Shown here: positions 2,583 to 16,684 of the stretch, one piece after another
How the letters are laid out: each line of letters begins with the position of its first letter
Numbering within the stretch: the first letter of the stretch is position 1
DNA from: a virus
Virus record (IMG/VR): IMGVR_UViG_3300030118_000964
Coordinates: 826-22,440 of that record
Length of the DNA: 21,615 nucleotides
Direction: 5' to 3' (one strand)
Made by a program: the position numbers and the translations under genes
Notes under the pieces: model-generated
What the model was told of the DNA's origin: nothing
Seen by the model: the letters and a program-made list of their open reading frames with translations, nothing else
The model's database searches: none

Positions 2583-5500
2583 TTATTTAGGCATTTCTAG
2601 AATCTTATCTATTGTGCCTTTGTTTGCTTGTCTATTTTTTAATTTTTGATTTCTTTCTTCAAGTAACAATTTTTGGACGTCGTTATCGTTTTTAAGGCTT
2701 GCCCAAGCTCGTTTCTTAGCTCGGTCAAACGTTTTTGCAATTTTTTTGTAGTGAGGGAATGATTTTGGTTCAACATCAGCCATACCATTTTTTCTGTGCC
2801 ATTGCATTTCTGCAAGAGATATCTGCATATTCTCTGACCTAGCCATTTCATCAAACTTAGCTAATAAGTTTTGTTCTCCTATAGCTTTCTGGAACATTGA
2901 TCTGACCTTTGGACTGTCAGATAGATCTGTTCCATCTGGAGCTGTATATGTAGAAGTTCTCATATCATAGCCACTGTTAAATAGAAACTCTCTACCTTCT
3001 GAGTAGTCTAAATTAAAGTTAACAGGTGAAAACGCATTAAACATACGAGTAATAAAATCGTGATCTTTAATAGGTTTACCAGTTAATATATCATACTTAA
3101 TAGGTAGTGGGTCTACTGCTATGTTCTCAGTTATTAAGTTTCTGTTTCTTATAGAACTTTGTAAATCAGAACCTAGCTCTCTTGTGTATGGTGTTAACAC
3201 TTTACCTATCTCATTTCTAAGACCAGATAAAGGTACTGTGTTATTCATTAGAGAAGCAATGATTCTATTAGATTGTCCGGGTTGACCAGAGAATAGATCA
3301 ACGAAAGATTGCATACCAGCTAGATAGGATTTACTTGTAATTGTACTTCCCATTGCCATAGCTAATTTTAATAATCTATCTTCAGCCCATTCTTCACCCA
3401 TTAATTGTTGGTGATCTCCTATATCTCCTACTAATGCAAGTATTTGGTTGTATGGTTCAAAGGCATCATAGTTAACCCAGACATCACCAAGTTTTATAGT
3501 CCTTGGTTTCCATCCCATATCTAACCATGCTTGTCTTTGCTTTCTATCTGTTGGTCCATTACCATGTAAATTACCACTAAGATATGCCATAGATGCCATA
3601 CTTATTGCAGCAGAACCTATTGCTAGTCTACCATTTTGGATAGCTTTAGCATTCATCAAATCCTGGGGGGTCTTAATTCCATACTGTAATAAGTCAGAAA
3701 GATCATCTCCGGGTTTTGCTTTAGCTATTGAGTTGAACTCTTTAACAAAGAAGTTAAAACCGGGAGTATGTTTAGCAGTTAATGCTAATCCATTGACACC
3801 AGTTCTAGCGAATAGGAAGAAAGGTCTAGCCCATGGTGCTTCGTCAAATGCTTTAGCCAAGCTCTTACTAAAACCTGTTAGGTCTTGAGTAAGTGTAGCT
3901 TCTCTTCTACTGAAATCAGCCATTTCGTCAGCTAAACTACCATCAGGTTTAAAGATCTGTTGATTAAATAAATCTTCTTGATTCTTAAAAAATGTCTGAT
4001 CTAGGTTACTGAAGTTACCATCAGGTAATCTATCAGCAGCAGCTAGAAATGCTTTTTCTCTAGCTCTAGCTCTACCTATCATTAGTGCAAAGGTATCGTC
4101 AGTAGCTGCCATAATCTTAGTAGAATATGTAAGAAGACTACTGTCATTTAACCCTCTAACCATGTTAGCTGTACGATATAATGCCTTATCTACTGTATTA
4201 CCTCTTGTTTCTGCCCAATGTCCATACATTTGCCATTGGTCATCTAGTTTATTTCTCTCTACAAATCTAGTTTTCATTGTAGATAATTCACCAGCCCAAT
4301 AACTATTTAATCTTTTTCTAAAATATTTAAAAGATTCTGGAACCATTTCACGCATTGCGTTAAGAGAAGCTAATGCAGCTCTAGTTATAGTTGCATCACC
4401 TTTCATCACACCTCCCATAGCCATAGCTAACGGTCTAGTAAATGCTGCGGTTGATGTACCCATAATTGCTCGAACTGATGTTTTAGGTCCAGATAAAACA
4501 CTATGAGTAAACATAGTACCCATCTCTCTCAAGAATGCACCAGTTTTTTTCTTATCGCCAGCAAATGTACCACCTCTCATTTTCTTACGCATAAATACGT
4601 CAAGATCATCTAGTGTGTGTACACCGTCAGCCATAGATATACCTTCAAATATAGTCTTAAATACTTCGTCACCGTCTTGTTCGGTAGTCATTTGTAGAGC
4701 TACACGAAACGCGTCTATACTTTCTTGTACATCTTTTTGTATTGCTTCTTTAAATTCTTTAGGTGATTTTCTTATACGTGCATCACCAAACTCTGATAAC
4801 ATCTGTGATACTTCAGCACTAGATGTTTTTCTTAACTCTAGTCCAGCTATAAGTTTCTCTACTAATTGTTGAGCAGGACCATCTATATCTTTTATATCTG
4901 CAATATCAGCTAATTCTCTAGCAGTTATACCAGCATCTCTAATATCATTAAACAAGGAAATATTAACCATGTCTAATGCTTTTATAAATCTAGGTTGTAC
5001 AATTTTACCAACTGTTCTACCTTTTTCGTTTTTAATTGGTATTGATGATTTAGTAAGTTTTTTAAAGAACTCTCCTGTACTTACGTCACTTGTGTTTCTA
5101 CCTTCATAGATTGACCTAAACATATCAAGGTCTTCACCTATACTATCTTGTAAAGTTTTACCTTGACGTCTAGCAGTTTCTTCTAACTGTTTTATAAAAC
5201 CTTGACTTCTAAAATTACCAAGAACTTCTTTTATAACTTCATCTGTCTCACCAGTTCCTTTAGCCATTCTACTAATCTGAGTATTAGAAAGCAAAGAACC
5301 TGTACTACCTTCTTCTGCACCCCATTCTGTTTTCATACGCTTTGCAGATTTATCTACAGCTTCAGCAGTACTGTTAGAAGTTGTAGCTCCCTGCCAAGGG
5401 TCAGCAATAGGTTCGTTCTTTGGTGCTCTAAACCCAGAGTCTTTCATCTGTGATTTAGCTTGTTCTCTTTTTTGTACTTCTACACTATCTAATCTAGACT

Positions 5501-13318: not shown

Positions 13319-14464
13319 TTAACCGTTCTCTGGGTATGTTGTACCGAACGCTGAAGGTGCTGTTGCGCCTACATATAGTTCAACGGCTGCTGCTGGGTTT
13401 AGGAAATCTGCGCCCATAGCTAGTCTTCCAAGGATTACGTCACCTTGGTAAACAACTGATACATCACCAGAAGTTACCTGAACCTGTGGTCCGATAGCTT
13501 CTACTACACCTGCTGCTTCCTTCTGGAAAATTAATCCACAAGATTTAGCGAAGTCTGTGCTGTTACCGTAGTTGTTGTTTAGTCCTGTTACAGACTTTCT
13601 GCCGTCAGCTAAAGCTGTACCGACATGGTCTCCTAAGTTTGAAGGAGAAGTCTCACCTGTAGTTCCGCCATAAGCTACACCATGCTTAGCTAAGAATGGA
13701 ATGTTCATTGACTTGTAGATATGAATACCTGCAATTTCAATGATTCCATTACCTGACTGTAATGCTGAACCTTGAACGTCTCTATTGATAAGTCCGTTTG
13801 AACCAATGTCTTGGATCAAAGCGTAGTACTGACGAGGGTTAAGTACTGCACATCTTCCTGCTGAAGATACACCTTTCTCGTCTAGTGCTGCTGCTGCGTC
13901 ATAGAAAGCATTAACTAAGTTGCCTGCGTTGTAAGCATCAGAATCATTAGTTGTAGATCCAACTCTGATCTGTGTTCCACCGGGCTCCTTGAAGTTAGTC
14001 TTTGCTACAGGTGAAGCCTGTCTAGCACCTTTAGCAATAGCTCTGAAGATGAGTCTGTCATACTTCTCTGCTAATGCGTATCCAATCTTCTTGGAAATTT
14101 CTCCTCTCAACTCGAAGTGTGCGAGTGTTTCATCTAGCTCATACACGAAGGCTGAACTGATTAATAGGTCGTCGCAAGTTATTGTTTTTTCTGCAACTGG
14201 AGGTGCGCCATCACTGTTACCTAAGATACTGTTTCCGGGAGTATGGAACTCGGCTTGTGTGCGACCTGTGTAGATGAACTGCAATGATTTGCCGTTCTTT
14301 AAGGTACGCTTCATAACCAAATCACGAGCTATAGACTCGTGTTGGAAGCCTTTGAACATTTCTCCACTGAACAATTTTAAGTAAAGTTGGCGAGGGTCGG
14401 AACCACCATTCAACGCACCTTGACGGGTGAGTGATGATGTCATTCCTGAACTCTGTTGAGCCAT
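13319..14464 (-). CDS. Major capsid protein (T7 gp10-like)
   Basis: 381 residues (T7 gp10A is 345). It is an HK97-fold shell protein: the N-arm begins MAQQSSGMTSSLTRQG, followed by 'ALNGGSDPRQLYLKLFSGEMFKGFQ', 'GKSLQFIYTGRTQAEFHTPG' and the central 'YDRLIFRAIAKGAR' helix. The C-terminal half includes 'GRCAVLNPRQYYALIQDIGSNGLINRDVQG' spread over the P/A-domain region. It lies between a structured 184-nt leader and a strong terminator, which gives it its own high-output segment. Codons look more GC-balanced than in the neighbouring tail genes, as expected for a highly expressed gene. No strong Shine-Dalgarno precedes the ATG at 14464. No programmed frameshift giving a gp10B-like form was recognised. 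Confidence 0.95.
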   Translation of the reverse strand: MAQQSSGMTSSLTRQGALNGGSDPRQLYLKLFSGEMFKGFQHESIARDLVMKRTLKNGKSLQFIYTGRTQAEFHTPGNSILGNSDGAPPVAEKTITCDDLLISSAFVYELDETLAHFELRGEISKKIGYALAEKYDRLIFRAIAKGARQASPVAKTNFKEPGGTQIRVGSTTNDSDAYNAGNLVNAFYDAAAALDEKGVSSAGRCAVLNPRQYYALIQDIGSNGLINRDVQGSALQSGNGIIEIAGIHIYKSMNIPFLAKHGVAYGGTTGETSPSNLGDHVGTALADGRKSVTGLNNNYGNSTDFAKSCGLIFQKEAAGVVEAIGPQVQVTSGDVSVVYQGDVILGRLAMGADFLNPAAAVELYVGATAPSAFGTTYPENG

Positions 14465-14648: not shown

Positions 14649-15263
14649 CTACTTTGTAATAGTCACATTAAATGACATTGTTATTCTTAATTCATCATGT
14701 TGTTGTGATGAACGTGGTGCGAGATGATCTTGATCAGGTGTAAACATTATCAAGTCTCCTTCTCTTTGTTGAAAAGATTCAACACCGGCACTGAAACATT
14801 CAAAAAATGGATGTTTAATATATGTTCCAGTTCTATTTAATATTGAATAATAAGGTGTAAACCTATTAGTAAAAACAGCTGGCTTTGCATACTTAGGAAG
14901 TTGCAAATAATATATCCCACTAACTACATTGTTACCAAGTTCATTACCAATGTGGTTATGTGTATCTTGGTACATATCCCAAGCATATACATTCCACCAT
15001 GCAGTTAAGTCCCACTTTGCATCTGGGAATCCAAAGTATTGCATCCATTGAGTAACTGCACTGGTGATATCTTCTCCTAATTCTTTGGGCATGGTTAAAA
15101 TTCTTTCAAACCAGCAATGAGAATTAGTATTCCAGTCCCAACATTTCTCTGGGTGCTCTTTAAACTCTTTAGTTAATTTTGGTATATATATTTTTTTATA
15201 CTTTTCCGTCTTCTCTAAGTTCAGTCTTGAAATAGGTTGAGGGAAAAGGGTGAATAATTCCAT
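14649..15263 (-). CDS. 2OG-Fe(II) oxygenase-like protein
   Basis: 204 residues. The central and C-terminal parts follow the phage '2OG-FeII_Oxy_5'-type pattern: 'AWWNVYAWDMYQDTHNHIGNELGNNVVSGIYYLQLP' around residues 88-123, then 'EGDLIMFTPDQDHLAPRS' (168-185) and 'ELRITMSFNVTI' (191-202). Candidate iron ligands are H102 or H104 and the distal H180; R193 is the likely 2-oxoglutarate-binding arginine. Such enzymes hydroxylate proteins or small molecules using O2 and 2-oxoglutarate; the substrate is unknown. The gene lies alone between a terminator and the capsid leader, with its ATG 10 nt after the terminator U-tract and no Shine-Dalgarno, so it depends on read-through. The first strand ligand is written HNH rather than the classical HxD, so activity is probable but not certain. 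Confidence 0.7.
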   Translation of the reverse strand: MELFTLFPQPISRLNLEKTEKYKKIYIPKLTKEFKEHPEKCWDWNTNSHCWFERILTMPKELGEDITSAVTQWMQYFGFPDAKWDLTAWWNVYAWDMYQDTHNHIGNELGNNVVSGIYYLQLPKYAKPAVFTNRFTPYYSILNRTGTYIKHPFFECFSAGVESFQQREGDLIMFTPDQDHLAPRSSQQHDELRITMSFNVTITK

Positions 15264-15272
15264 AGTTTTTTT

Positions 15273-15302
15273 AAATAAAAAGAGCAGCCGTGTGACTGCT
15301 CT
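15273..15302 (-). terminator. Rho-independent terminator before the 2OG oxygenase gene
   Basis: Stem AGAGCAG/CTGCTCT (15302-15296 with 15287-15281) and an 8-nt loop TCACACGG, followed by TTTTATTT on the minus strand. It ends the RNR-portal-hli-psbA transcript. Its proximal arm begins 9 nt after the stop codon of the 16-residue peptide. Confidence 0.88.
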
Positions 15303-15362: not shown

Positions 15363-15368
15363 CGTTAT

Positions 15369-15433
15369 CTCCATATACCCAAGCCCCGTTCCATGCTTGA
15401 GTCTTCATGCGTCCCGTAAGGGATGAACGGACG
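15369..15433 (-). ncRNA. Glutamine-II riboswitch (Downstream-peptide RNA motif)
   Basis: The minus-strand RNA has P1 CCGUUC/GAACGG (15430-15425 with 15391-15386), a hairpin UCCC-UUAC-GGGA (15423-15412), a CAUG/CAUG helix (15409-15406 with 15395-15392), and a pseudoknot of up to 8 bp between ACUCAAGC (15402-15395) and GCUUGGGU (15384-15377). The conserved strings CGUUCAUCC, GGGACGCAUG and CAUGGAACGGGG match my memory of the Downstream-peptide family, shown to bind L-glutamine. The pseudoknot ends 4 nt before the GGAG that serves the YRG peptide, so control of translation initiation is likely. Identified from remembered consensus, not by a covariance search. Confidence 0.8.
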
Positions 15434-15494
15434 TAAGATCATGTGCTTTGGTTTTTGTATCCAGTGTCTAGAAACACCAGCAATGATAAAGCAA

Positions 15495-15608
15495 TTAGTT
15501 ATCAGTGTTATCGTCGTCAGAAAGTTCTTTATCAGTTTCTTTCTCTTCTTCTTTTTGAGGTGCATAGTAGGTGACGCTTGCTCTCATAGCATTTGATTGA
15601 TGGCTCAT
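15495..15608 (-). CDS. 37-residue acidic protein coupled to psbA
   Basis: Short ORF starting at an ATG that shares ATGA with the psbA stop (15605-15608), so ribosomes finishing D1 could re-initiate directly. The product starts [18 protein letters not shown] and ends in a very acidic, Asp/Glu-rich tail; there is no membrane span or recognised domain. An alternative overlapping frame (15365-15565) is longer, but it has no ribosome-binding site and its 3' half is the riboswitch, so the coupled ORF is preferred. Function unknown; a role near D1 expression is only suggested by position. Confidence 0.5.
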
Positions 15609-16684
15609 CCTATAGATGGTGCTGTTAGTGCAACTTGTGTTGACTCAGCAGAAGCCAAGTCAAGTGGGAAGTTGTGAGCATTACGCTCGTGCATTACCTC
15701 GAAACCAAGGTTAGCTCTGTTTACAACGTCAGCCCATGTAGGAACTACCTTTCCATTAGCATCAACAACTGATTGGTTAAAGTTGAAACCGTTAAGGTTG
15801 AATGCCATTGTGCAAACTCCCATAGCTGTTAGCCATATGCAAATAACCGGGAAAGCAGCAAGAAAGAAATGTAGAGAACGAGAATTATTGAAAGACGCAT
15901 ATTGAAATATCAATCTCCCAAAGTACCCGTGTGCAGCGACAATATTATATGTCTCTTCATCCTGCCCAAATTTATAGCCATAATTCTGCGAGACCTCCTC
16001 TGACGTTTCGGCAATAAGTGAGGAAGTAACAAGACTTCCGTGCATAGCAGAGAAAAGAGATCCACCGAATACCCCAGCAACACCAGCCATATGGAATGGG
16101 TGCATGAGTATATTATGTTCTGCTTGGAATACGAACATAAAGTTAAAAGTACCAGAGATACCAAGAGGCATACCATCACTAAAACTCCCCTGTCCGAAAG
16201 GGTAAACCAAGAACACTGCGAGAGCTGCGGATAGTGGTGCTGTGTATGCTACAAATATCCATGGTCTCATTCCTAGTCTGTATGAAAGTTCCCACTGTCT
16301 ACCAGCGTAGGCTGCAACACCTATCAGAAAATGGAAAACTATAAGTTGGTATGGTCCGCCGTTATATAGCCACTCGTCCAAAGTGCCAGCTTCCCATATA
16401 GGGTAAAAGTGCAATCCTATTGCGTTGGAGCTTGGAACTACTGCTCCAGAAATAATGTTGTTTCCGTACAACAACGAGCCTGATACTGGCTCACGTATGC
16501 CATCTATATCAACTGGTGGTGCAGCGATAAAGGCGAGTAAAAAACATGTAGCGGCTGTAAGTAAGCAAGGAATCATAAGCACACCGAACCATCCCACATA
16601 GAGACGGTTGTTGGTGCTTGTTACCCACTCGCAAAACTTCTGCCAATTATTACTGCTTTCTCTGGTTACTGAGATTGCAGCCAT
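15605..16684 (-). CDS. psbA: Photosystem II D1 protein
   Basis: Full-length D1 of 359 residues, in register with host numbering. Visible key residues: Y161 (TyrZ), H198 (P680 ligand), H215 and H272 (non-haem iron), S264 (QB site), and the Mn-cluster ligands D170, E189, H332, E333, D342 and A344. Five membrane helices are expected. The C-terminal extension after A344 ([15 protein letters not shown]) should be removed by the host CtpA protease. Residue 130 is Gln, as in low-light D1 forms. The region around 223-232 reads [12 protein letters not shown] where hosts usually have RETTExESQ, a phage-typical change in the degradation-linked stromal loop. The ATG directly follows the hli stop with no gap. 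It replaces photodamaged host D1 during infection. The sequence looks intact, without intron. Confidence 0.99.

Follow-up and report, generated by a model that had tools for sequence, protein, structure and literature searches.

Picocyanobacterial Glutamine-II riboswitches (RF01704; PMC2864571, PMC6698751) act as ON switches, in keeping with the report that type-2 glutamine riboswitches activate expression (PMC6316151). Binding of glutamine stabilises the pseudoknot (PK), which probably competes with an alternative fold in which the ribosome-binding site is masked (PMC6698751). Host relatives of the phage peptide described below respond to nitrogen, and their domain, DUF4278, is the N-terminal part of IF17, the glutamine-synthetase inactivating factor (PMC6316151). 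In Prochlorococcus MED4, antisense RNAs opposite two host genes of this kind (Yfr6 and one similar to its peptide) are reported to rise early after infection by phage (PMC2518516). Glutamine riboswitches have already been noted in T4-like cyanophages, Pelagibacter phage Mosig and methylophage Melnitz (PMC9964418, PMC9602691, PMC9004378), so their occurrence in phages is not new.

Here we analyse a stretch of viral DNA of 21,615 nucleotides (the window) that carries such an element. Like its picocyanobacterial counterparts, the element has the P1-PK-P2 layout with all ligand contacts and lies directly ahead of a short YRG open reading frame (ORF) whose start codon is close. Phage copies differ from those of the host in a conserved 5' CGU(C/A) flank, in a CGCAUG linker where hosts have CGCAGU, in the hairpin between Shine-Dalgarno (SD) and codons that the short-peptide phage class adds, and in the single YRG unit of the peptide, where hosts have two or three. 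The element shares with those of Mosig, Melnitz and the T4-like cyanophages that it is borne by a marine phage. However, the Melnitz riboswitch is described as similar to the glnA motif and as lying with ssrA, whereas this one is type-2 and precedes a YRG peptide and a T7-like capsid gene. We propose that this T7-like cyanophage has, within its late region, a Glutamine-II riboswitch that probably controls translation of a one-unit YRG peptide.

Aptamer identity and architecture

Comparison of the whole window with Rfam returned RF01704 (Glutamine-II / Downstream-peptide) at 15378-15432 on the minus strand, with model positions 1-60 aligned end to end at 54.6 bits (E = 6.2e-11; gathering cut-off 33 bits), far above chance. 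This is the sole Rfam match in the window at the gathering threshold, at which the three-way junction model of Glutamine-I (glnA, RF01739) was not matched, and the whole virus record of 22,440 bases contains one aptamer copy. An earlier note, made by reading the sequence, had placed a Glutamine-II riboswitch at this site on the minus strand, within a cyanopodovirus late region. Three lines of evidence bear out the family call: the covariance model, the full set of ligand-contact nucleotides and helices that covary among 108 unique viral copies; the sequence agrees with the site and strand, and the window genes and annotated relatives with the setting. By these measures the element is an ordinary RF01704 member and its RNA a predicted glutamine binder.

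We mapped the window nucleotides onto the crystal numbering of PMC6698751. The PK helix pairs C1-C5 (15429-15425) with G36-G40 (15391-15387), and together with the long-range pair C19:G41 (15409:15386), A33.G42 (15394.15385) and G18 (15410) it makes up a glutamine-binding core that spans 15385-15429, all on the minus strand. The ligand-contact nucleotides C1, G2, G18, C39 and G40 are present at 15429, 15428, 15410, 15388 and 15387, as are C19, A33, G41 and G42 of the binding core at 15409, 15394, 15386 and 15385. The PK pairs and C19:G41 are invariant in 51 aligned viral leaders.

The P1 hairpin UCCC-UUAC-GGGA (15412-15423, minus strand; 15423-15420 paired with 15415-15412), which the earlier note had already seen, shows covariation at pair 4. 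P2, which that note overlooked, is an 8-bp helix of ACUCAAGC (15402-15395) with GCUUGGGU (15384-15377) on the minus strand and the best-covarying of the aptamer helices: both sides change in seven of eight pairs, slid registers are far less paired, and in the 108 unique viral aptamers 96-100% of the pairings at pairs 1-6 are standard, with as many as six types at a pair. These 108 copies were used for aptamer counts, and an alignment of 51 short-peptide leaders for helix tests. In that alignment, 96.8% of the cells assigned to pairs by the aptamer structure are paired, compared with 88.2% after shuffling and 25-62% in slid registers.

Two other pairings, proposed in the earlier note, differ from those of the family. 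The suggested pseudoknot of up to 8 bp has five pairs in the crystal (C1-C5:G36-G40) plus C19:G41 (PMC6698751); the bases that would extend it are already engaged in C19:G41, A33.G42 and P2, 26 of 108 viral copies have an A at position -1, and the extension is without covariation support. The suggested CAUG helix joins two CAUGs that are indeed complementary and that RNAalifold draws as paired, yet it is incompatible with the crystal pair C19:G41. Since both CAUGs are invariant in the 51-leader alignment, covariation cannot assess this helix. Both pairings are conceivable solely as a ligand-free fold, and such a fold is close to the nested MFE.

Host homologues are known, and the flank and linker of the phage copies are unlike those of the host, as might be expected of a relic acquired from a host with its gene, in which switching was lost. 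However, the contact nucleotides are invariant, the helices covary across many genera and the place in the genome is conserved, and we regard a relic as highly improbable.

The YRG peptide and its host relatives

Exactly 4 nt (15376-15373) separate the end of the aptamer helix from a GGAG SD sequence (15372-15369, minus strand), behind which is a 16-codon ORF at 15362-15312 on the minus strand, MKVTFVYRGISYTKIV, with one YRG-x-x-Y unit; the earlier note had seen both. An upstream ATG at 15374 (MEITMKVTF...) was rejected as the start because it shares bases with the SD and, in several relatives (e.g. L123 and L054), does not lie in frame with YRG. GGAG occurs 5-9 nt ahead of an ATG in 69 of 128 viral loci, and a minority of viral copies are without a recognisable SD or apparently have other platforms.

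A YRG ORF follows the aptamer in 128 of 134 viral loci, and in the remaining six the contig ends inside or before the ORF. The Y, R, G and second Y are invariant in 87 unique viral contexts, for which YRG was a selection criterion and the second Y was not. The peptides are mostly 13-38 aa long, and 127 of 128 loci encode one YRG unit, the other encoding two. In Prochlorococcus and Synechococcus (63 loci), the same aptamer precedes three-unit proteins of 55-58 aa that belong to Pfam DUF4278 (E = 6e-11, 38-43 bits), and it also precedes 33-aa two-unit peptides, equal in length to the published Yfr6 peptide (PMC1242208, PMC2518516). The phage peptides are thus single-unit forms, against two or three units in host genes. 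No solved structure was matched for DUF4278 (best E 1.1). One Prochlorococcus Glutamine-II element (L269) precedes a 56-aa non-YRG protein (MNELSQIREKITRARRLYEAQ...), which is a second kind of host target.

Phage peptides share the L-x-YRG-x-x-Y unit behind the same riboswitch with host DUF4278 proteins and Yfr6-type 33-aa peptides (PF14105; PMC2518516, PMC1242208), but fall under the Pfam cut-off. The 20-residue readings had no Pfam match, so that the window peptide, read as 20 aa, did not match DUF4278 (PF14105), and longer phage peptides scored at most 22.9 bits against the profile (gathering cut-off 25.3). Peptides of 32-38 aa have a different N-terminal part, and some align, below the cut-off, with the C-terminal third of the profile. 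The simplest guess is that the peptide may be a mimic or competitor of host DUF4278-type proteins.

A hairpin between the Shine-Dalgarno and the codons

The proposed expression platform is a hairpin, P4 (15344-15376, minus strand), identified by covariation and drawn unasked by RNAalifold. It pairs 15376-15364 (AUAUGGAGAUAAC, which contains the SD) with 15356-15344 (GUUACUUUCGUAU, codons V-T-F-V-Y). Its 5' strand comprises linker, SD and spacer, and the start codon sits in the 7-nt loop; in the window it has 11 stem pairs and 4 more above a mismatch. In the 51 short-peptide leaders, 86.3% of P4 cells are paired, compared with 75.8% after shuffling and 24-44% in slid registers, and 60 cells are changed on both sides, compared with 21 after shuffling. 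The covariation score is 0.362 against 0.192 for shuffles (none of 500 reach it), and slides score ≤0.09.

Pair 81:121, which joins the linker base past P2 to the third base of the codon preceding YRG, is standard in 51 of 51 leaders and occurs as five types (UA, CG, GC, GU and UG). All nine of its changes on the capsid-protein tree fall on the same branches for both sides. Block transfer of the module between phages could inflate this tree result, and we therefore give more weight to the fact that pairing is kept through all pair types. At the early Val codon (GUA or GUU), the third base fits the spacer base (U or A/G) in 52 of 53 short ORFs. Codon use at the motif is unlike that of the genome, as expected if the codons double as structure: the Arg codon is CGT or CGC in 107 of 115 (AGA makes up 71% in the window's genes), the first Tyr is TAT in 113 of 115 and the second TAC in 101 of 115. 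From the aligned leaders, P4 is a predicted covarying hairpin that sets the SD against the peptide's own codons.

Is P4 part of the switch? The base of P4 shares GGU (15379-15377) with the 3' end of P2. All 51 leaders retain the P4 pair at columns 78:124 and 49 of them the one at 79:123, and the matching P2 pairs are the least kept, as competition between P2 and P4 would predict. P4 may thus be, for the short-peptide phage class, a fold of the kind invoked to hide the ribosome-binding site (PMC6698751). This overlap and conservation argue against P4 being a constitutive start-codon hairpin outside the switch, with glutamine controlling the peptide through another pairing, for instance one in which the ribosome-binding site is bound by the 5' flank and the PK strand. 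That arrangement draws on the conservation of CGU(C/A) in phage flanks, on an S-TIP37-like class in which the flank UUCGUACG pairs with GUACGAA ahead of the ATG and engages pseudoknot C1-G2, and on L024, with an anti-SD UAAUCUCC immediately 5' of the aptamer; phage classes outside the short-peptide one (L024, L127) seem to use a 5' anti-SD. But pairing of the flank with YRG codons is weakly supported in the short-peptide class, and we consider a constitutive P4 unlikely. A candidate helix P0, in which the 5' flank would pair with YRG codons, with runs of 6-9 pairs in about half of the short-peptide loci (above shuffles), was rejected; it is without an excess of double-change pairs and has 5 weak pairs in the window.

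Without the shared GGU pairs, P4 loses 3.7 kcal/mol on average (-11.6 to -7.6 in the window), and in simple folding the short P4 still covers the SD. Folding without the pseudoknot gives a mean SD accessibility of 0.43 vs 0.45 between states, which is little change. This result and the continued cover of the SD by the short P4 count against glutamine-dependent opening of P4.

Genomic setting of the module

The stretch from psbA to the terminator past the peptide matches 26 phage records by blastn, every one from a cyanophage or from an uncultured marine phage in the same families, and the matched stretches are without an annotated feature. Similarity mostly begins about 3 nt ahead of the aptamer (query 170-172 of 341), longer or closer alignments extend through the YRG codons, and P-GSP1 alone matches further upstream. 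All 13 relative records examined pass the Rfam cut-off. The module is present but not annotated in at least nine cyanopodovirus genera, with P-SSP7 among its carriers; genera with annotated context are Lingvirus, Tritonvirus, Tiamatvirus, Pagavirus, Tangaroavirus, Igirivirus, Cheungvirus, Sednavirus and Pekhitvirus. Related queries added S-CBP1, S-CBP4, S-TIP28, P-SCSP-R27W and others, and a pattern scan found the module in at least 119 IMG/VR contigs; in a pattern scan of genome contigs, many chance matches in unrelated bacteria without a YRG ORF were disregarded. Two contigs, L011 (~2890-3010) and L108 (~6185), carry the aptamer and YRG peptide with a terminase-like gene and without podovirus neighbour genes; they are other phage types.

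Neighbour genes were located with proteins of the window as probes. Of 81 loci with enough sequence, 79 have the major capsid gene on the same strand no more than 2.5 kb downstream, and of 84 loci with enough upstream sequence, 53 have psbA within 1 kb upstream. The module is therefore part of the beginning of the capsid region, with psbA a frequent neighbour; since the other 31 of the 84 have no psbA at that distance, psbA was rejected as the regulated partner. In the window, psbA lies at 15605-16684, the major capsid protein gene at 13319-14464 and, between peptide and capsid genes, a 2OG-Fe(II) oxygenase gene at 14649-15263 (phrog_81, E = 1.6e-16), all on the minus strand. An intrinsic terminator past the peptide (15273-15302, minus strand; stem 15302-15281, then a U-rich tail) has equivalents in only 2 of 121 viral loci. 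We therefore view it as a local feature beside the inserted oxygenase gene and not as part of the module in general.

Could the switch act on more than the peptide? The constancy of the downstream capsid gene, the fact that most relatives have no terminator ahead of the capsid gene once the peptide has ended, and a gp222-like gene that starts 5 nt past the peptide stop codon in Tangaroavirus are what one would expect of a functional aptamer that targets the whole late transcript (the capsid gene or other genes past the peptide), with the short ORF as a leader peptide or coupling device. However, a mere leader would have no need of a conserved YRG-x-x-Y motif that corresponds to host DUF4278 proteins; the window has a terminator and a further gene ahead of the capsid gene, and the capsid gene has a structured leader of its own. 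We judge control of the whole late transcript to be quite improbable, and favour translational control of the peptide. In the Tangaroavirus loci L125, L126 and L132, the gp222-like gene has a signal-peptide-like start, and its proximity to the YRG stop codon suggests that it may be translationally coupled to the riboswitch.

A second structured RNA, at 14614-14556 on the minus strand, lies about 90 nt upstream of the capsid gene and follows the pattern UUGGC..GCC[4-bp hairpin]GGAUACC..GCCGUC..GACGGUGGG.A.AGACCACA. It occurs in 91 viral loci in all, including L123 (~4160-4225); its 4-bp hairpin is kept in 84-85 of 85 unique copies, with up to five pair types per pair. The window and relatives gave no Rfam match to it at the gathering score or at E up to 1, and we consider it a candidate undescribed capsid-gene leader RNA. 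Just upstream (~14646-14620, minus strand) is a hairpin with a GCACCUCAGAGUCGGA loop, and at the equivalent position other phages have a tRNA T-arm-like form (GGGAGGUGCAAUUCCUCCC).

Discussion

Translational control of the peptide by the aptamer and P4 would most likely be an ON switch, as has been described for the host riboswitches. When glutamine is scarce, the pseudoknot would be loose and a long P4 would hide the SD. Glutamine would stabilise the PK/P2 stack and withdraw the shared bases from P4, and the opened P4 would let ribosomes initiate. The peptide would then be made when host nitrogen is ample, and would probably replace or oppose host DUF4278 proteins. Published probing found P1 and P2 formed even without glutamine (PMC6698751), and for this reason competition between P2 and P4 alone may not be the switch. 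A 66-aa frame in the window (15365-15565, minus strand), with a conserved, membrane-like N-terminal half, is open across the entire aptamer, and its stop codon falls in the SD-ATG spacer; a few relatives are partly alike, and in others the frame ends well ahead of the aptamer. Ribosomes on this frame would unfold the switch, which counts against the model.

The earlier note had suggested that the phage senses host nitrogen state, and this appears reasonable. As a fuller but tentative account, the module may encode a glutamine-gated one-unit mimic of the multi-unit DUF4278 proteins, with the peptide's own codons in the switch and the platform inside the coding sequence, and the peptide might displace or mimic host proteins late in the infection of nitrogen-replete cells.

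Judged against the open-access literature, the fixed pre-capsid place of the module across cyanopodoviruses, the contrast between one unit and two or three, and the hairpin of SD and codons are apparently undescribed. P-SSP7, the model cyanopodovirus, and phages of many genera appear to carry an unannotated metabolite sensor beside the capsid gene. If working, it would tie late expression in an abundant group of ocean viruses to host nitrogen via RNA, and its target would be a peptide, mostly of 13-38 residues, that gene callers miss. The phage module may also offer a handle on the function of the host YRG/DUF4278 proteins.
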